Shown: in pieces, positions 1,391 through 57,606 of the stretch | How the letters are laid out: each line of letters begins with the position of its first letter | Position numbering within the stretch: position 1 is the first letter of the stretch | Assembly: GCA_009733575.1 (NCBI GenBank) | Contig: ML769447.1 | Location: 205,217 to 269,216, forward strand | DNA length: 64,000 nucleotides | Reading direction: 5' to 3' | Origin: Gymnopus androsaceus JB14 | Taxonomy: Eukaryota > Basidiomycota > Agaricomycetes > Agaricales > Omphalotaceae | The notes under the pieces: model-generated | What the model was told of the DNA's origin: nothing | The model's input: only the letters and a program-made list of their open reading frames with translations | Databases searched by the model: none | Made by a program: the position numbers and the translations under genes

Positions 1391-2471
1391 TATTTAGATA
1401 GACTCGGAAGCGGGCGCGGAAAAAGGGGTACCTGGTAAAACATCGAAACTTTAATACCGGTCGAACAACAGTTAAATTTGAGCCAGAACAAGAACATTTG
1501 GGCGGGACATTTAACGTTCTGGTATTAGTAAACACCACATTAGCAGTTACGCCGGCAAGATCTCCTTCGGATGCGATTGAACCTTCGCATCGACTGGCTT
1601 GGGGGTTGTCATCGTTAGTAACTTCGCCGACCGATAATAGACCCTCAGGAGTCAGGTAGCGAAGGTCAAGTAGCCTCTACCGACCTGGACCTGCAGGCGA
1701 CCCACTGATCGAAGGCAGAAAAAAACGGTGACGCGTGACTTTGTCGCACATCTCCTCGATCTTGCTAAGTTGCTTTTGCTCATCCAGCTCCGTTATCATT
1801 TTTAAGGAAAAAGATCAGTATATTACTGTTGGAATTCACGGGTTTGATATCAGGTTCTGGTGAGTAAATTATAATGTCTTTTAAAATCTGAATCTGACTT
1901 ACTTTGGCTCTAGAGGGATATTGGATACGAAAATATACTGCTAATTTCCTCTCACATGTACATTGATTCTATCATTGTCAAATCAAAGTTGGTTTCTCGG
2001 CAAATTCCCCAGAAATGGCCAGGATTCCCATCGAAACTACTAGACGTATGTATCTCCGACATCTGGAACTATCACGGTGCCACCATGCCCGCCCGCCACC
2101 TCACCAAAAGGCGAGAAACCTTAATCCGTTGCAAAGCCGCTTCAAAGTACGCTTCCGACGTCGAATTAAGCTGGACGCAATTTCGCAAAACATCGTATGA
2201 AAGGATACCATTCTGCGCCAAAGTTCTATTGAATACCTCCATGGACCGTGCCGAAAGGTTACCGTGGTACGATATAAGCCTATGGGCACATTGCGTGATA
2301 TCAATCATGAATAGATTGGATCTACCATTAGTATCGGCTCTCTTTAGTACTTCCAGCTCATTAGAAAGGCATAATTTAGGCTAGAGAACAGTAGGCTTGT
2401 TCCATTGATCGACTCAGGTGCGTGTTCAATCTTATCGCAAGCTAATCAGTTACTGAGGCAAATTTACTAGC
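1391..2471. other. Upstream region of the F-box gene
   Basis: The part from about 1700 to 2471 is shared with 18120-18775, upstream of the second F-box copy, so it belongs to the duplicated cassette and probably includes the promoter. A 142-codon frame at 1956-2384 is broken in the second copy and matches no family I know, so I do not call it a gene. Confidence 0.6.
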
Positions 2472-4076
2472 TTGATGAAGACCAATCTCCACCAATGGAC
2501 TGAGGAGCTCATCCTTGCTCGACTTCGAAATCAAGAACTTCCTGACGATCTGGAAACCCAGGAAATCGTCTTGGAAATTGAAGATCTGGAGCAGAGACTA
2601 TCGGAATCCGTCACTGGCTCCAGTCATGCTTCCAATAAATCCTTATCTAACAGCGAGCATGATGTTCTTGAGCAACGTCTAGCTTATTGCCGCGCATTCC
2701 TTGCTCCAGTCCGTCGATTGCCATTCGAACTACTCGCCGAAATATATCATCTCATCCTTTGTTCAGTCCGTGATAATTCACCCAGACCAAAAGAGCAACT
2801 GGCTCCGACACGAGCACTCGTGGTCTTATCTCACGTCTGCTCCTTCTGGCGCAAAGCCTGCTTCTCTACTACGACGCTCTGGAATGATATCCGTATCCCA
2901 TCCTTGTTTCGCAACGCCAAAGATGCTCGTTTGGTGGAAATGCAATTGCGATATTCTGGAAGCAGTCCTTTGGATATCCAGATACACAACTTTGGTGCTA
3001 GCCGTGAGGCGGATATGGACAGCGCCAGAGATATCTTGGAAGGTCTCATCTCCCATCGTGAGAGGTGGAGGAAAGTCTTGGTTATTGGAATCAATACCTG
3101 GGCGGAACTCAACTCTGCTTGCTCGACGGTACACACCCAAACGGGCGACCTACATTTCCCGTCATTGGAATCGCTACTCTTACGGGATGCCGATCATAGC
3201 TCTGTTAATGCCTTCTCTTCTGCGGACTTGCCTCGTTTACAGACTATGGAAGTGCATGGCTACAATCCAAGCTCATTTCCTTTCCATCAGCTCACCTCCC
3301 TTTCCCTGGTCCTAGATCGCAGAGAGACACGAGTGTTTCGACTTCCTCGAGACTTCACAGACCACTTGGCCAATCTAGAGCACCTGCATTTAGAGGGTGA
3401 ATTCAACTACCTTCCTAACGAAATTGGCTGCACGGACTTTGAGCACGCATTGCCTAAATTGAAGTCGTTGGTTATCGAAGTATACTCCAAACCGTTTTTA
3501 ACCTTGTTCTTGAACACATTCCGCCTGCCTGCTCTACTTTCCATAGAAATAATTACGCCCTTGCAAGATTGGCCTCAGGCAGATTTTATCTCCCTGCTCA
3601 CTCGTTCACAGCGTCTTTCTGCATTGACGAAACTGTCATTGAGATGGGCGCAGATTACAGATGAGCAGCTGTTGGAAATTCTTCACCTGACGGAGAGCTT
3701 GGAGGAGCTCAAGGTTCTCGAGGATCACACGAACACTCTATCGCCCTCCCTGTTTCGGGCAATGTCGATCAGTTCGACGCCCATAATTGTACCCAAGCTG
3801 CAGCATATATTTTTTTCCATGGCGATTTCCGAGAAAGAATGTCCTGTTGGCATCGAGATGGTGGCTTCTCGTTCAGCGAAATCACTCTCAAGTAACTTGG
3901 ATTCTCCGAGTTGCGTTCCGCTTAAATCTTTTATGCTGTTCTTGATCCTGGCTTACAAGCCCGTGGAGCCTCCTGCTTCGCTAGGAAAAGAGAGCTTAAG
4001 AGCGTTGCGGGAATCGATGGAGATCACAGTCAGACTGGCTGCTCGGGATGCTCCCGTGGAGGAGAATATTTTATAG
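2472..4076 (+). CDS. F-box-like protein (intact copy)
   Basis: Intronless 534-residue protein of the large agaricomycete F-box-like family. These are putative substrate adaptors of SCF ubiquitin ligases; the function is inferred from the family. Residues 1-50 are charged and probably coiled-coil (LETQEIVLEIEDLEQRL). The F-box-like core is at about residues 80-145: VRRLPFELLAEIYHLIL, then LSHVCSFWRKACFSTTTLW. The rest is a leucine-rich, repeat-like region, as is usual in this family. The start ATG lies just after the duplicated upstream block and is conserved in the copy at 18776. A decayed SET gene follows in the same orientation. The last 165 bases are repeated at 7602-7769. The copy at 18776-20383 has frameshifts; this one is open throughout. 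Confidence 0.85.
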   Translation: MMKTNLHQWTEELILARLRNQELPDDLETQEIVLEIEDLEQRLSESVTGSSHASNKSLSNSEHDVLEQRLAYCRAFLAPVRRLPFELLAEIYHLILCSVRDNSPRPKEQLAPTRALVVLSHVCSFWRKACFSTTTLWNDIRIPSLFRNAKDARLVEMQLRYSGSSPLDIQIHNFGASREADMDSARDILEGLISHRERWRKVLVIGINTWAELNSACSTVHTQTGDLHFPSLESLLLRDADHSSVNAFSSADLPRLQTMEVHGYNPSSFPFHQLTSLSLVLDRRETRVFRLPRDFTDHLANLEHLHLEGEFNYLPNEIGCTDFEHALPKLKSLVIEVYSKPFLTLFLNTFRLPALLSIEIITPLQDWPQADFISLLTRSQRLSALTKLSLRWAQITDEQLLEILHLTESLEELKVLEDHTNTLSPSLFRAMSISSTPIIVPKLQHIFFSMAISEKECPVGIEMVASRSAKSLSSNLDSPSCVPLKSFMLFLILAYKPVEPPASLGKESLRALRESMEITVRLAARDAPVEENIL

Positions 4077-12760: not shown

Positions 12761-15700
12761 TTAAATTCCAAAATGGATAAAAGGTACCCATTTTGCAAAA
12801 TTGGTTTCACCAACTTGCTTGCGGAGATTTTTGGTGGCTTCATGGAGTGCATATGCTGGACTCATTTTTGATTTCTGTGCATCTGAATTGTCATGATGTC
12901 CTAGAAGATTTGCATAGACTTTATCAGCAATCAGAGGAGCTTCCCTATCCCCAATAGACCACAGTGTAGCAATAACACTTGGATACCCTACTGCAAGCAT
13001 ACCAGCTGCAAGATGGACAGCTTCTTCAGGGAGATTCTCATCTCCTGTGGCTGTCTGGCATGCAGAAAGGACTGCAAGCTGCACATTGTTTAAGGACAAG
13101 GACATCAATGATTTGAGCTTTAGTTTCTGATCATACAGGGCAAATGCACTGTCAAGTGGATCCCGTATATCCTGGATTCCATGACAAGCAAAATGGATGA
13201 TATCATATTTGCCCATTTCATGCATGACAGTGTCTGCAGTTGCTGCATCATGATTAAGGTGGTGAGAATGTGTATTTGAGGTGTATTTTTGAATGACCTT
13301 TGCCTCTTCCACAGTGCCAGGTAGAGGTGACAGTCCAGGTGTATTAGGTTGTGAGACAATGAGAACAGTAGGGATCTTGGCCTGATGTTGTTTGAGCTTG
13401 GGAACAGAGCTAAGCAAAGCACTCAAGGTTGTGGTATATGAGGAGACCACAAAATCAGAAATATTAATGTCTCTCTCTGTTGGTCCACCATATATTCCTG
13501 CTGCATGAAGTGGGAGAAGGGTAAGTGGACCTGTTGGGCACCATGTGACATGAGGAATGGTATCTGCAGCCAGTTTATATAACTAATGGAGAGCTATCAG
13601 AATATATTAAAATTAAAAATTAAAATAAAATAGTATTACCAGATCTTCAATATTTGATAGAATTGGATGCACAACATTCAACCATAAAAGCTTCAAAATT
13701 AATGCAAAATGGTCATGACTTTCTCCTGGTGCTGTTTGTGTAGCACGATCACCATTACGGTCAACTCGAACACCATTGATATGCAGTGATGAGAGTAGTT
13801 TTAAGTGCAATTGCTGTGCCAGTTTCAGGGAAAACATTGGGAGAGGAACATGAATGATAGCCTCAGATGAGCACAGAATGAGTGCATCACACCGATGTTC
13901 ATCCACATTCACAGTGATTAAAGGTCCTTGTGTGGCTGCAGAAGCAAGCTCAGAAACTATTTTTGGCTTCAAGAAGCTAGTGAAACCATCCATGCTCCTA
14001 ATGTTTTGCAGAAGCTCTTTATACCGAGCAGCCATCCGGCGATGCTTCTGGGCTTCCTCCTCAACATTTTCTGCCTTCATTCCTGACACTATATCTTCTG
14101 TTTCATGCTCAGTAGATGTCCCTGCATTTTGCAACACCTGAGCAACCATCTCCAACTCCTTTGCAATTTTTGGATGCTGATGATGAAGATCATCTAATGG
14201 TGAACGCAACTGAAGTATCTGTCCCCAGATGATACTGCGACCTTCATCCAGCCACTCAACTGCCAGTGGCACTTTTCCTGCAGAAATTGCAGTAGCAGCT
14301 GCTGCACCAATGATCCTTCCTATATAAGGCAATTCTTCATAGCGACGGCTGACTGTTTGCCCAAGCCAGACAACTTGAGGGATTAGCTCAAAAAATCTTG
14401 TATAAGCTTCTACAGCCAAGGCTGAAGTTGAACAGAGCCTGGACCACCTGATTGCAGCCTCTAGTTGAACATGAGCTATACCAGATGGGAGCAGACTAGC
14501 TCTTTGGAAAGCAGATAAAGCAGAATCAATGTCAATTTTATCCTGAGAATAAGCATATTTTGACTGGAAGGCAGCAGCAAGGTTATACAAGCAACCAGAT
14601 TTCCCAAGATGACCATCAGGTGAAAGTTCAACTGCCTGAATCAGTGCCACAATGGCATTCTCTATGTCAGTGAGCTCTCCCAGATAACTGAATCGTGACT
14701 GATAAGCCTTGCCAAGGTTATTCAACCGTGAAGACTTATGAGCATGACCATCAGGAGTGAGTTCAATTGCTTGCTTCAGGGCCATAATGGCACTGTCTAT
14801 GTCAGTAAGTTCTCCCAGATGACCAAATCGTGACTGATAAGCATTGCCAAGGTTGTTGAGTGGGCGGGATTTGTTAGCATGACTATCAGGAGTGAGTTCA
14901 ACAGCTTGCTTCAGGGCTACTATGGCACTATCTATGTCACTAAGCTCTCCCAGATGGCCAAATTGTGACCGATAGGCACTACCAAGATTATTGAGCAGGC
15001 GGGATGTGTTGGTGTGACCTTCAGGAATGATTTCAACTGCCTGCTTCAGGGCCACAATGGCACTTGCTATGTCACTGAGCTCTCCCAGATGGTCAAATCG
15101 TGACCGATAAGCACTACCAATGTTACTGAGCAGAGTAGAGTTGTTAGCATGACCATCAGGAGTGATCTCAACTGCCTGCTTCAGGCCACAATGGCATTGT
15201 CAATGTCATTAAGCTCTCCCAGATAACCAAATCGAGATTGATAAGCACTGCCAAGGTTGCTCAATCGGGAAGGCTTATCAGCATGACCATCAGGAGTAAG
15301 TTTAATTGCCTGCTCTAGGGCCATAATGGCACTGTCTATATCCCTCAACTCTCCTACATGGTTAAATCGTGACCAGTAAGCATTGCCAAGATTATTGAGT
15401 GTGCTGGATTTATTAGCATGATCATCAGGAGTGAGTTCAACTGCCTGCTTCAGTGTCATAATGGCACTGTCTATGTCACTAAGCTCCCCAAGATGGCCAA
15501 ATCGTGACCGATAAGCACTACCAAGGCTATTGAACAGGTGGGATTTATTGGCAAGACCATCAGGAGTGAGTTCAACTGCCTCTTGCAGGGCCACAATTGC
15601 ACTCTCTATGTCTTGAAGCTCTCCCATATGGGTAAATCGTGACTGATAAGCATTGCCAAGGTAGTTGAGTATGGTCAATTTGTTGACATGACCATTGGGA

Positions 15701-17536
15701 GTGAGTTCAAATGCCTGCTTGAAAGCAAGAATGGCACTCTCTATGTCACTAAGCTCTCCCAGATGGCCAAATCGTGACTGATAAGCACTACCAAGGTCAC
15801 TCAAGTGGGGAGGCTTGTTAGCATGACCATCAGGAGTGAGTGCAATTGATTGCTTCAGGGCCACAATAGCATTCTCTATGTCACTAAGCTCCCCCAGATG
15901 GTCAAATTGTGACCGATAAGCACTACCAAGGTTACTGAGCAGGCTGGAGTTGTTGACATGACCATCAGGATTGAGTTCAATTGCCTGCTTGAAGACAACA
16001 ATGGCACTCTCTATGTCACTAAGCTCCCCCAGATGGCCAAATCTTGACTGATAAGCAGTGCCAATGCTACTCAACCGCTGAGGTTTATCAGTGTGACCAT
16101 CAGGAGTGAGTTCAATTGCCTGCTTCAGGGCCACAATGGCACTCTGTATGTCACTAAGCTCCCCCATATGGTCAAATCGTGACCAATAAGCACTGCCAAG
16201 GTGATTGAGCAGGCCAGACATGTTGGTATGACCATCAGGAGTGAGTTCAAGTGCCTGCTTGAGCACAAAAATGACATTGTCTATATCACTCAGCTCTCCC
16301 AGGTGGCCAAATCGTGACTGATAAGCACTGCCAAGGTTAATCAACCGGGGAGGCTTATCAGCATGACCATTGGGAGTGAGTTCAATTGTCTGCTTCAGGG
16401 CCACCAGGGCACTCTCTATATCATTAAGCTCTCCCAGATGGCCAAATTGTGACTGGTAAGCCTTTCCCAGGTTATTGAGCAGAGCAGGTTTATTAGCATG
16501 GCCATCAGGAGTGAGTTCAATTGCCTGCTTCAGGACCATAATAGCACTCTTTATGTCACTAAGCTCCCCCAGATGACGAACTCGTGACTGATAAGCATTG
16601 CCAAGGTTATTGAGCAGAGCAGGTCTGTTGGCATGACCATCAGGAGTCACTTTGATTCCTTGCTTCAGGGCTACAATAGCACTTTCTATATCACTAAGTT
16701 CCCCTAGATGACTAAATCGTAACTGATAAGCACTGCCAAGGTTATTGAGTGGGCTGGATTTGTTCACATCACCATCAGGAGCAAGTTCAACTGCCTGCTT
16801 TAGAGCTACAATGGCATTGTCTATATCACTAAGCTCCCCCAGATGGCGGAATTGTGACTGATAGGCATTGCCAAGGTTATTGAGCAGAGCAGGTTTGTCA
16901 GCATGACCATCAGGAGTGAGCTCAATTGCCTGCTTCAGAGCCACAACGGCACTGTCTATATCACTAAGCTCCCCCAGATGGTGAAATTGTGACTGATAGG
17001 CATTGCCAAGGTTATTGAGTAGAGCAGGTTTGTCAGCATGACCATTAGGTATGAGGTCAACTGCCTGCTTCCAGAGTTGTACAGCATTCTCAATTTGGGA
17101 TATGTCTCCTGACTGTTGGAAAGACTGTGCTAACTGCAATGCTGCATTGTTTAACTCATCCACCTACTCAGATCCCATCAGTGATGTATACAAGGTCCCA
17201 CCATAAATTGAAACATACTTTCCTTGTCCTCTCTATTCTCTCCATTTGAGATATGAGTTCACTCAACTTACTGCGGTGCAGCTCAACAACTGCCTCATCA
17301 AACTCCTCCGATGACAAAGTTGACAGAATTAAAGCATTTTCAAGCTCTTCTTGATCCTCTGCATTGAGTGAGGTATCACTCATGGTCTGCAATGGTATAT
17401 TATTACATGTTAGACATTTAGCATGTACCCAAAGACATACTTGTGCTTCAAGTTGCTCCAATGACATGTTGATGGCCATTTGAAGTTCAGCATACTCATC
17501 ATCATCTTGCATAGAGTCGCTAGATGTTCTCTCCAT
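12761..17536 (-). CDS. UIM-TPR-CHAT protein: putative ubiquitin-binding caspase-fold protease
   Basis: Four exons: 17441-17536, 17219-17386, 13640-17163 and 12761-13582. Introns are 54, 55 and 57 nt (GTATGT or GTAATA donors). Adding one base at about 15183 gives 1536 residues. Residues ~12-30 (ELQMAINMSLE) and ~40-60 (ELENALILSTLSSE) fit the ubiquitin-interacting motif pattern of acidic residues, Leu, Ala and Ser. Next come 19 repeats of 45 residues (consensus LNNLGNAYQSRFGHLGELS), a helical linker, and a CHAT domain: CPTGPLTLLPLHAAG, HFACHG (His ~1397) and LSACQTATG (Cys ~1438), the expected His/Cys dyad. CHAT domains are clan CD proteases related to separase and caspases. TPR-CHAT proteins are common in agaricomycetes, with no settled function that I know of. 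One base is missing at 15182-15186 (AGGCC where other repeats have AGGGCC), creating a stop after repeat 14. It could be a sequencing error or an inactive allele. Confidence 0.85.
14560..17065 (-). repeat. 19 tandem 135-bp units coding TPR-type repeats
   Basis: Each unit encodes 45 residues with invariant positions (NLGxAYxSxFxHLGELxDI, then AIxxLKQAxELTPDGH) and variation concentrated in the xNKSxxLNN stretch. Fourteen units precede the frameshift near 15183 and five follow it; the last (LGKSGCLYNLAAAF) is degenerate. The units are collinear with the protein period, so this is not a CRISPR or a satellite. Confidence 0.9.
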
Positions 17537-18775
17537 ATCCTATCCCCTATCAGTATATTGCATGAGATAAATAGCTTGACTCACTGCCATTATCAAATCC
17601 CAGCAGAATTGGAGTTCAATGGGAATGAATGTACTCTGCACTTGATCAGGATGAGAAATACAAAATAGTAGAATAATAAGGGAAGAAGTGGGCTTTTCGG
17701 ACACAAGTGACAGAGTTTTTGGGCCTTTATATCAATTTTTGATCTAATGACAGCAAGAATGCGGAACAACTGACAGCTGTTCCAAAAATCTAGGCCAATA
17801 TCAAAAAATCGTGTAACAGCTCCCTATTCAGTAGCTACTCCGTTTGATTCATTCACAAGCCAGGAAGGAAGGAAGGAAGATTTATTACACGGCACGGTCC
17901 ACAATCTGAACAATCAGGATATATCGTAGTTAAACAGATTCGGTCCCGAATAGGATAGCACATCATAGTGTCGGTGCGAGAGAGAAGGAAGTAAGTGTAG
18001 ATCAAATGGAAGCAATGAGATGTATCCTTTCCGCTCCCTCTCTGCAATGTGCATCTTCATAATAGTGATACCCTTCCGTGTTTCAAGACGTTCAACGGTT
18101 CATCCTGCTACCAGGAATTTCGGCCGTTTTACGTGAAACCAGTGGAACGCGTGACCTTGTCGCACTTGTGACTTGTCCTCGATCTTGCTTCGTTCATGCA
18201 GCTCCGTTATTATATCCAGAGTCATTTCATAGGTTTACAGGCTGGTGTTAGGTTGGTGAGCAAATGATAACGTCTTTTAAAATCCAAGTCCGACTTACTT
18301 TGGCTTTAGATGGATATTGGATGCAACAACTATACTGCTAATTAGAAGGAATTTCTTGTTACATGTGCATTGATTTTATCATTGACGAAAAGTGGTCGGC
18401 CGACAACGGTACCATCATACTCGCCGCCGGAGCCTGAATCCGTTGGAAAGCCGCTTAAGTACGTGTTGACCTTGCCACCGTGTTGCCAGGCTTCCAGTCA
18501 CTTCTTGAGATGGGTCGTCCTATCTCTCGATTCAACCTTTCTGCGCGCAGGCTCTACTGAATGCCCCATGGACCGTGCCGAAAGTTCGTATAAGCCTGTC
18601 CATGGCACATTGCGTGATATCAATCATGAATAGATTGGATCTACCACTATCGCCTTGTTCTCTTTAGTACTTCCAGCTCAGCGGAAAGCACATACGTTAT
18701 GCTAGAGAACAGGTCTGTTCAGGTGCGTGCTCGATCTTATCGCAAGCTGATCATTTACTGAGCGAATTTACTAGC
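17537..18775. other. Divergent intergenic region between the CHAT gene and F-box copy II
   Basis: It should hold the CHAT promoter at its left end and, from about 18120, the same F-box upstream block as 1700-2471. A (GGAA)n run lies at 17861-17878. It is followed by a ~45-base block (to about 17910) whose reverse complement resembles 51265-51312. No gene is recognised. Confidence 0.5.
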
Positions 18776-20383
18776 TTGATGAAGACCAATCTCCACCAAT
18801 GGCCTACTGATGAGCTCCTTGTTCGCCTACGAAACCAAGAACTTCCTGACGCTCTGGAGACCCAGGAAATCCTCTTGGAAATTGAGTATTTGGAGAAGCG
18901 ATTTCATCATGGATCGGACTCCGTCACTGGTTCCAGTGATGCTGCCAATAATTCCTTATCTAACAACGAGCACGAGCAACGTCTAGCTTACTGTCGCGCA
19001 TTTCTTGCTCCAATCCGTCGCTTACCATCCGAACTACTCGCCGAGATACATCATCATATCCTTCGTTCAGTCCGTGATAATTCACCCAGACCAAAGGAGC
19101 AGTTGGCTCCAACACGAGCACTCGTGGTCCTATCTCACATCTGCTCCTTCTGGCGCAGATCCTGCTTCTCTACTACGACGCTCTGGAAGGATATTCGTAT
19201 CCCATCCTTGTTTCGCAGCGCCAAAGATGCTCGTTTGGTGGAAATGCACTTGCGATATTCTGGAAGCAGTCCTTTGGATATCCAGATACACAACTTTGGT
19301 GCTAGCCGTGAGGCGGATATGGACAGCGCCAGAGATATTTTGGAAGGACTCATCTCCCATCGTGAGAGGTGGAGGAAAGTCTTGGTTATTGGAATCAATA
19401 CCTGGGTGGAGCTCAACTCTGCTTGCTTGACGGTACACACCCAAACGGACGGCCTACATTTCCCATTATTGGAATCGCTACTCTTACAGGATGCCGATCA
19501 TAGCTCTGTTAATGCCTTCTCTTCTGCGGACTTGCCTCGTTTACAGACTATGGAAGTGCATGGCTACAATCCAAGCTCATTTCCTTTCCATCAGCTCACC
19601 TCCCTTTCGCTGGTCCTAGATCGCCGAGAGACAGTCTCAACTTCCTCGAGACTTTACAGACCACTTGACCAATCTAGAGCACCTGCGTTTAGAGGGTGAA
19701 TTCGCCTACCTTCCTAACGAAATTGACTGCACGGACTTTGAGTCCACATTGCCTAGATTGAAGTCGCTGGTTATCGAAATGTGCTCCGAACCCTTTTTAA
19801 CCTTGTTGAACACATTCCGCCTGCCTGCTCTACTTTCCATAGAAATAATTACGCGCTTGCAAGATTGGCCTCAGGCGGAGTTTATGTCCCTGCTCACTCG
19901 TTCACAGCGTCTTTCTGCATTGACGAAACTGTCATTAAGGTGGCGCATATTACAGATGAGCAGCTGTTGGAAATTCTTCGCCTGACGGAGAGCTTGGAGG
20001 AGCTCAAGGTCGTCGAGGGCAACATGAACACTCTATCGCTCTCCCTGTTTCGGGCAATGTCGATCAGTTCAACTGCGCCTAATACGCCCATAATTGTACC
20101 CAAGCTGCAGCATATTTTTCTCCACATGTGGATTTCCGAGAAAGACTGTCCTGTTGGCATCGAGATCGTGGCTTCTCGTTCAGCGAAATCACTCTCAAGT
20201 AACTTGGATTCTCCAAGTTGCGTTCCGCTTAAATCTTTTATGCTGTTCTTGGTCCTGGCTTACAAGCTCGTGGAGCCTCCTGCATCGCTCGGAAAAGAGA
20301 GCTTACGAGCGTTGCGGGAGTCGATGGAGATCACCGTCAGAGTGACTGCTCGGGATGCTCCCGTGGAGGAGAATTTTTTATAG
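18776..20383 (+). pseudogene. F-box-like gene, copy II, frameshifted
   Basis: Closely similar to the intact F-box gene from the first codon to the TAG stop. The first 300 codons are open, then two changes shift the frame: a net loss of 5 bases near 19633 (just after LVLDRRET) and a 1-base loss near 19940 (TKLSLRW-AQITDE in the intact copy). The C-terminal part is still well conserved (MSISSTAPNTPIIVPKLQ, ending DAPVEENFL), so the breaks are recent or are sequence errors. It lies about 260 bases upstream of the intact SET gene. Confidence 0.8.
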
Positions 20384-55752: not shown

Positions 55753-57606
55753 TCAAAACTCCCGACGTTTTCCTTTCGAATCTTTTGGAGCGTCTTTTGG
55801 ACTGCTATCAGTCGAAGATGATTGACGAGAACCCTCTCCCATCATCATCATGACAGGATTCACAATAGCCCGGGGCGAGCGTGGACTGCTAGTACTCGAA
55901 GACATGGAAGAGTAATTGTACATTGGAGCAGCCGCGGGAACACGGCCAGTCCTTGAGGACATGAAGGGGTAGCTGTATGATGGTTCAGGCGCGGAAATAT
56001 CGCGCATTCCGGCAAGGGGAGCAGGAATGGGCGGATATTGAGTTGCTGGCAAAGGGAACGAAGGCCCGCGCGGAACAGAATCATTACTGGCATTGGCATT
56101 GTTGGTATCACTGTGACTTGAAAATCCGCTCTGTCGCTGCGAATAACCGTGATAGCCTGGATAATGTCCCCGATAAGGAGTCTGAGCTGGAGGAGGATCA
56201 ATATAATGCGAATGCATGCCACTGCTGCGAGTCGAGTAGGGATTTCCAGTGGTGATGTTCAGCGATTCGAGCTCTGCGTTTGGTAGATTACCGTCCGACT
56301 CACTCCGACGAATATTTCGGCGAGTAGTGGGAGTGGGAAGCTGACGACTAGGAGCATGGTAAGGTGAATGCCGAACCGTACTGCTCGAGGCTGCATGAGA
56401 GCTAATATTGCTGCCTTGGGAGCCAGTCGGTGATACCGGAGCTTCATCGTTGTCGTTGTCGTCATTGTTGTCCCCACCTTGCGAGTCTGTGCTCGTACCT
56501 CGGCGGGATCTGGATCCACGGGGACGTCGCTTTCGAGTACGTTTGTCTTGGCCCACAAAAGACATGTCGAGCGTCCAATAGTCTCCGCTGCCTGGATGGC
56601 TCATGGGGCGCTTTACCTGAATGAACTCCCCTTTCAATGATAGCATATGTCGAATGGAGCCCTAAAGACACACTATCAGTAAATAGTTCGTCAAAAAAAT
56701 AAAAGAGAGCCTGCATACCTGCCATTTCGTCTCACCAGTTCTGAAGAATAGAAATCGTTCTTCAATTGCTTTGTAGATGTCTCGCAGAGAGAGTCGGTGA
56801 TCTGGAGCTCCGACAATAGCAAGCTGAACAAGCGTTGCTAGCTTCTGGATAGGCCTCTCACCATGAGGAGGATCGGGTAACGCGTTCAGATTGACGGGAA
56901 CGCCGTCAGGAATGCTATTTAGTTCACGAATTCGCCTTACTGTCTCCTCTCGCCGGTTCCGTCGCTCATCGACATAACGCGTGTCTGGAAGAGAATCGTA
57001 CGAATTTCGCCCGGAAGACGAAGACGATGCCGAGGAGAAGTTTCCTTGTGAATACACGCCAGCACTCTGGCGGTAAGGATAACTCTGATCGAGTTCGTAT
57101 TCGTGATTGGAAAGTTGGTACGATGAAGACCGAGAGTCATCCCAGGAATGGCTTTGTCCCCCCACGTATGCTTGAGTCGGATAGCTGAAATCGTCTTGTG
57201 GCGGGGAGAAATATTGAGAGGAGTAGCTCATTTCGCCTTCGTATATCGTCGGAGAGGTCGTTTGCGGCATCGGAAGCTGGTGAAATAAAAAAAGAATAGG
57301 AAAAAAAACAAGTCAGAAACACGAATGTGTGGCGCGCGCAAGTCCGTTGTGTGACACTTACCTGATCCGCACTCCCAAACATACTATTTCCTGAGCCCAT
57401 ACTAGGGAAAGGAAACGGATGTTGTGGCGCTTCGTCAATAGGTCAGTATGGCCAAGTTAATCGGATGTACTGGACCCACCTCCATGTCCTCGAAACCCGT
57501 TGTCGTCTTCGTCGTCTCGTCGAGCATAAAGTCGGAAGTTTGGAAATATATTATCGTCCTCGGACTTGAATAAAAGGTGAGAATTACCGGCCCCGAGCAT
57601 TGACAT
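55753..57606 (-). CDS. Forkhead (winged-helix) transcription factor
   Basis: Exons: 57480-57606 (start at MSMLGAGNSH; an in-frame ATG at 57642 is an alternative), 57362-57429, 56718-57276 and 55753-56661, with introns of 50, 85 and 56 nt, all in phase. The N-terminus is Gln/Ser/Tyr-rich and disordered. The forkhead domain spans exons 3-4: PIQKLATLVQLAIVGAPDHR, LSLRDIYKAIEERFLFFRTG, ETKWQ|GSIRHMLSLKGEFIQ and HPGSGDYWTLD. The recognition-helix hallmark WQxSIRHxLSL is present, with Met where many have Asn. A basic stretch (KRTRKRRPRGSRSRRG) follows, probably a nuclear localisation signal, then a Ser/Pro-rich tail ending DSKGKRREF. It is a nuclear DNA-binding regulator; targets are unknown. The splice site in the middle of WQ|GSIRH is typical of the family. 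Confidence 0.85.

Follow-up and report, generated by a model that had tools for sequence, protein, structure and literature searches.

A family of TPR-CHAT proteins with two ubiquitin-interacting-motif-like N-terminal motifs in Gymnopus androsaceus and related mushrooms

A gene on the minus strand (positions 17536-12761) of a 64,000-nucleotide stretch of the Gymnopus androsaceus JB14 genome (contig ML769447.1, 205,217 to 269,216; hereafter the window, at its full length) encodes, in four exons, two motifs resembling the ubiquitin-interacting motif (UIM), followed by some 20 repeats of TPR type and then a CHAT domain. The UIM-UIM-TPR-CHAT architecture is confirmed and is widespread in one lineage of fungi. 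We read the window gene as one copy of an expanded family of marasmioid mushrooms whose products would be ubiquitin-directed proteases, a reading that, taken as a whole, has about an even chance of being right.

A family of head-bearing CHAT genes

The 83.3-Mb genome contains 62 CHAT matches, some of which are pieces of one gene. A search with the 88-residue N-terminal segment of the window protein, the head, gave 45 genome matches at E values up to 10; three were dropped (E 0.31, 2.8 and 5.9), and the 42 kept represent 24 loci, the window included. At 21 of these 24 loci, again counting the window, a CHAT match in the same orientation follows 2.2-5.0 kb 3′ of the head. The other three are C21:80584, which has a stop codon in exon 1, C23 and C282:34068. 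The first-pass annotation of the window had overlooked that the gene belongs to a large paralogous family. The idea that exons 1 and 2 belong to a different transcript was judged unlikely, because the head precedes CHAT at so many loci and because deposited gene models join the two in four genera, Gymnopus, Dendrothele, Tetrapyrgos and Stygiomarasmius. Twenty CHAT loci were examined with long flanks (those of L025 being shortened by the contig end), and one of them, L013, has a degraded head remnant. Some deposited models, matched to their contigs by length, lack the head although the DNA has it: P0005 (contig C116), P0006 (C53), P0013 (C160) and P0024 (C12). At locus L035 (C23, ~264,900-265,200), the head seems to contain a tandem duplicate of motif 1, and its contig carries none of the 62 CHAT matches.

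When the C-terminal half of the paralogue P0003 was used as the query, 1086 of 7992 scored candidates were relatives with E values no higher than 1e-10, and the best 120 of the 1086 were surveyed. A loose regular expression for the motifs matched the first 250 residues of 22 of the 120, although two of these matches, in P0109 and P0110, look like chance. A FastTree phylogeny, with local support values only and with heads taken from gene models, comprised 119 rows, namely the window and 118 of the 120 relatives (P0007 and P0060 were dropped). The window falls in a 71-row branch (support 100) together with Gymnopus, Tetrapyrgos, Stygiomarasmius, Rhodocollybia and all Dendrothele rows except P0077 and P0097; within the branch, 37 rows form a Dendrothele block and 15-16 a Gymnopus block. 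Since heads occur in its Gymnopus, Tetrapyrgos, Stygiomarasmius and Dendrothele rows, the head seems, from these sequences, to be older than the split of the four genera. Three Rhodocollybia models show no head; gene models can miss small exons. Candidate heads in Sphaerobolus, a motif-2-like stretch in P0073 and a loose match in P0072, were too weak to count. In each of two protein searches with head regions, all matches came from the species of the query (3 Gymnopus and 12 Dendrothele proteins).

The N-terminal motifs as candidate ubiquitin binders

Exons 1 and 2 of the window gene each hold one acidic Leu-x-x-Ala-x-x-x-Ser motif, so that the two motifs first annotated, one per small exon, are both present in the rebuilt gene. 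Motif 1, DDDEYAELQMAINMSLEQ, occupies residues 11-28 of the protein, and motif 2, EDQEELENALILSTLS, lies in exon 2 (residues 42-56 of the protein, EDQEELENALILSTL). UIM proteins such as Rpn10, Vps27, ataxin-3 and RAP80 have a helix with an acidic run, Leu, Ala and Ser, often in tandem; the helix pattern is shared, whereas the motifs of the present family mostly score below the Pfam cut-off. To our knowledge, none of these four is a TPR-CHAT protein.

We aligned 20 of the 24 heads, excluding L009, L035, L036 and L037 as incomplete or broken. A strict regular expression found both motifs in 9 of the 20 heads and one or both in 17, as compared with 0.07% and 3.75% of shuffled sequences, respectively; for the window head, two strict motifs arose in 0.06% of 200,000 shuffles. 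The key residues were conserved as follows: E17 in all 20 heads, L18 in 15, A21 in 15, S25 in 18, E46 in 19, L47 in 17, A50 in 19 and S54 in 16. Conservation at these eight positions exceeded that of the rest of residues 2-69 only modestly (0.869 vs 0.763, permutation p 0.028). Between genera, we compared 11 Dendrothele, 3 Tetrapyrgos, 1 Stygiomarasmius and 3 Gymnopus heads, the Sphaerobolus row being excluded. The key residues were kept to a similar degree, A21 less so. Besides Met1, 17 columns had a common consensus letter and 14 of the 17 lie inside the two motifs, a result that leans towards the motifs because the rows were picked for having heads.

Pfam searches of the 20 heads at E values up to 1 reported UIM (PF02809, cut-off 21 bits) in 8, more often than any other family; UIM_2 was reported in 4, and 13 other families appeared once each. 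With one shuffle per head as a control, UIM was found in 0 of 20. The first-pass annotation would have been refuted by background UIM scores together with unconserved Leu, Ala and Ser positions; these results, with the three residues kept in 15-19 of the 20 heads, do not refute it. In a further set of 19 heads from five genera, selected for head-like appearance, UIM_2 was reported in 13 and UIM in 10, all below the cut-off. The related G. androsaceus protein P0041 exceeded the cut-off, with 42.3 bits across three stretches. The DNA of its gene (L038 ~1180-1620; C40, ~64,250-64,690) contains three near-identical tandem 5′ exons encoding one UIM each, from which we conclude that UIM number grows by exon duplication. 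A six-frame UIM scan of the whole genome that took no account of CHAT yielded 17 matches (E values up to 10), two of which lie in exon 1 of heads located 5′ of CHAT (E 0.135 and 4.0); the three C40 exons were absent from its list, and the scan is therefore not sensitive. On the basis of the shuffles, the Pfam control and the cross-genus columns, a chance motif was judged unlikely.

Several observations weigh against the ubiquitin-directed reading. Pfam reported no UIM for the window's own head at E values up to 1, and full-length P0043, P0033 and P0062 gave none at E values up to 10. Among the scanned heads only P0041 reached 21 bits; the best E values below the cut-off were 0.0025 and 0.0038. 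A Protein Data Bank (PDB) search with the head profile returned no UIM and matched only TrwC (E 1.1). Ala21 is missing from the columns common to the four genera, the sole Stygiomarasmius head having Gly. Predicted helices over motif 1 were of low confidence (predicted local distance difference test, pLDDT, ~44-48 and 32-34). The head is also less constrained than CHAT, the ratio of nonsynonymous to synonymous substitution rates (dN/dS) being 0.42 as compared with ~0.22. Finally, at L011, L018 and L019 the head is still recognisable but apparently lacks one or both motifs, and L027 has lost motif 1.

These negative scores bear on the possibility that the helices are acidic, amphipathic UIM look-alikes that make folding or dimer contacts and have nothing to do with ubiquitin. 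The lack of a Pfam report for the window head and the sub-threshold scores of two other short heads (16.5 and 18.0 bits) would be expected of look-alikes, whereas the UIM-specific difference between real and shuffled heads and the score of P0041 would not. Furthermore, both motifs lie in a low-confidence, probably disordered head that is separate from the fold; in P0003, helices were predicted over motif 1 (residues 17-28, low confidence) and over the motif 2 region (44-58). We regard the look-alike explanation as unlikely. Selection alone proves little here: the ratio of nonsynonymous to synonymous differences (pN/pS) of the whole head, 0.51, is close to the 0.50 of 17 repeats; taken singly, motif 1 gave 0.47 (0.26-0.80) and motif 2 gave 0.35. 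We consider it probable that the head binds ubiquitin. In 17 of the 20 heads, residue 29 in the stretch joining the two motifs is a proline (Leu in the window), which suggests loosely coupled UIMs for which no strict chain choice is expected.

Ubiquitin binding could serve self-control only, with coupled mono-ubiquitination or turnover keeping the protease low or shut and no ubiquitinated target being read. UIMs promote the ubiquitination of their own protein, and L018 has lost a motif yet retains a usable, constrained CHAT exon, both of which fit this possibility, but the C40 gene, with its UIM exon amplified in tandem to three, hints at a gain in avidity beyond mere self-tagging. We give self-control as the sole function little credence. 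Another ligand must be considered as well, because sequence alone cannot tell a ubiquitin binder from an Atg8 binder: the helices could engage the UIM-docking site (UDS) of Atg8 so that the protein is recruited to, or degraded by, autophagy. According to the accessible parts of a review (PMC7615515), UIM-like sequences have been reported as Atg8 binders, which makes Atg8 a serious alternative ligand, although the same text states that UIM-UDS binding has no structural support. Two or three tandem copies would, moreover, suit ubiquitin avidity, and we hold binding of Atg8 instead of ubiquitin to be distinctly improbable.

Gene model, repeats and frameshift of the window copy

The exon-intron model of the window gene was derived from the genomic sequence alone, and all three introns start with GT and end with AG. 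Exon 1 (17441-17536, minus strand as for all segments below) encodes 32 residues with the start codon and motif 1 and is conserved in the paralogues. Intron 1 (17387-17440; 54 nucleotides, GTATGT...CAG) separates two phase-0 exons, the second of which (17219-17386; 56 residues) encodes motif 2 and the beginning of the next helix. Intron 2 (17164-17218; 55 nucleotides, GTATGT...TAG) is followed by the first part of exon 3 (15202-17163), which encodes about 15 TPR-type repeats of 45 residues. A one-base frameshift at 15181-15201, in the 15th repeat by count, interrupts the gene, and the old frame meets a stop codon directly. In the other frame, the remainder of exon 3 (13640-15180) encodes about five more repeats and then a linker of ~300 residues. 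For intron 3 (13583-13639; 57 nucleotides, GTAATA...TAG), the acceptor was picked from three candidates as the one that preserves the frame. The CHAT exon (12761-13582; coding 13582-12764, stop at 12761) contains HFACHG with the His and LSACQTATG with the Cys.

The CHAT domain first annotated on these two motifs stands: both are in the window frame, and PF12770 (cut-off 24 bits) scored 152.8 bits over profile positions 21-288 of 289. Both the His and the Cys motif were found by regular expression in 103 of the 120 relatives. P0068, a Dendrothele bispora CHAT protein that bears the name NACHT domain-containing, has LSTGETAIG as its Cys motif and has apparently lost the catalytic Cys. The repeat part matches Pfam TPR_11 (E 1.8e-42). 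The long TPR array originally described is confirmed; counted by eye it has about 20 repeats, the first and last copies being divergent, as against the 19 first given; TRF gives 18.3 copies of a 135-nucleotide unit at 14609-17071 and a regular expression gives 17. At four repeat positions (13, 40, 44 and 45), pN was above the pS of the array; this comparison involved no formal test, and diversifying selection is therefore not claimed. Pfam thus recovered CHAT and TPR in the pieces of the window gene and the UIM in the relative P0041, but no UIM in the window head.

Because of the frameshift, which had been overlooked, the window copy encodes every part of the proposed architecture but not in a single open frame. 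If the frameshift is real, the product would have 748 residues (88 + 660) and no CHAT protease. The window copy could then be a pseudogene, its short product of two UIM-like motifs and about 15 repeats being inert or a decoy. In line with this, a head search among proteins of ~845-2688 residues retrieved three relatives (70-72% identical) but not the window's own head, as fits a gene model broken at the frameshift; a second copy, L037, is also broken, by a stop in exon 1. However, the CHAT exon downstream is still under purifying selection. A usable CHAT exon was obtained from 13 of 18 loci, the window included (L011, L016, L019, L021 and L024 gave none), and dN/dS between the window and the 12 paralogues was 0.18-0.29 with a median of 0.22, identical to the median of the 66 other pairs. 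The frameshift is thus either of recent origin or an error of assembly, the latter, within an 18-copy repeat array, being equally likely. In short, the window copy is either mis-assembled or recently broken; that it is a pseudogene is a tentative reading with somewhat less than an even chance. Since it concerns this copy and not the family, in which relatives with an intact frame exist, it can hold together with the ubiquitin-directed protease reading.

Two F-box-like open frames are present elsewhere in the window, at 2457-4073 and 18668-19696 on the plus strand (23.4 bits each, cut-off 24.3), the second of which adjoins the CHAT gene. A Forkhead domain is split across two open frames at 55756-57312 on the minus strand (33.0 and 24.9 bits, cut-off 27).

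Known TPR-CHAT proteins and a possible mechanism

The CHAT exon matched the TPR-CHAT structure 7zoq in the PDB (E 0.0065), with an alignment spanning both catalytic motifs. The predicted fold of a paralogue, in which a TPR superhelix and CHAT are combined, matches Csx29 and separase. Csx29, the bacterial TPR-CHAT protein of the type III-E CRISPR Craspase, agrees in fold but shows 11-13% identity in the listed alignments; the present family differs from it in being eukaryotic and in having more repeats and a UIM-like head. Separase is the cohesin protease and is usually single-copy, whereas the present genes constitute a multigene family whose products combine near-identical repeats with a UIM-like head. 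We consider it quite likely that CHAT has protease activity.

In fungal cell-death loci, gasdermin-activating TPR-CHAT proteases and NLR-like CHAT receptors likewise join CHAT to TPR or other kinds of repeat (PMC12881547, PMC10197012), but the available portions of these two papers do not mention ubiquitin. Unlike the NLR-like receptors, the window gene shows no NB-ARC or NACHT among the Pfam families listed for its four pieces (the best 25 of 29 for the repeat piece). From the part of PMC10197012 available, 19% of fungal gasdermins lie within 10 kb of CHAT protease genes. The available text of PMC11138114 maps a CHAT gene to an Aspergillus fumigatus het locus, which it presents as the first proof for CHAT; the Neurospora and Podospora work is, in its account, about a serine protease. 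To judge from this, the published reports are not wholly in step. TPR-CHAT is therefore already known. In agreement with the first-pass annotation, our searches of open PubMed Central papers found no description of a UIM head on TPR-CHAT, the one paper that came up being a review of disordered proteins in the ubiquitin-proteasome system, nor any paper on the CHAT domain with Agaricomycetes.

The function suggested in the first-pass annotation is plausible; by analogy with the published TPR-CHAT work in other fungi, a role in cell death or non-self recognition is about evenly poised between likely and unlikely. In the mechanism that we propose, the two N-terminal helices would bind ubiquitin or short chains, weakly and additively, and would thereby recruit the protease to proteins or membranes that carry ubiquitin tags. 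The TPR superhelix, variable in length, would be the sensor that recognises a protein partner and holds CHAT; joint binding of ubiquitin and the partner would free or concentrate the separase/caspase-like protease, which may then cut a downstream target, by analogy most likely a pore-forming, gasdermin-like executioner. A genome search with the gasdermin model PF04598 gave 0 matches, which counts against this last step, although the test is weak, its sole named control genome being bacterial. The PF04598 model misses fungal gasdermin forms. That the family consists of ubiquitin-gated executioner proteases, in which tandem UIMs read ubiquitin marks directly and act with a TPR sensor, so that the death or non-self reaction requires a ubiquitin mark together with a partner, with UIM number tuned by exon duplication, is a doubtful proposal.

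The nature of the stimuli is described as a major open question for such fungal cell-death proteins in the accessible part of PMC12881547. For the stimulus of these repeat-bearing proteins, the presence of the head at 21 CHAT loci and in three further genera suggests a concrete input, namely ubiquitin. If the head does bind ubiquitin, the ubiquitin system would be linked directly to a caspase-like protease within one polypeptide.

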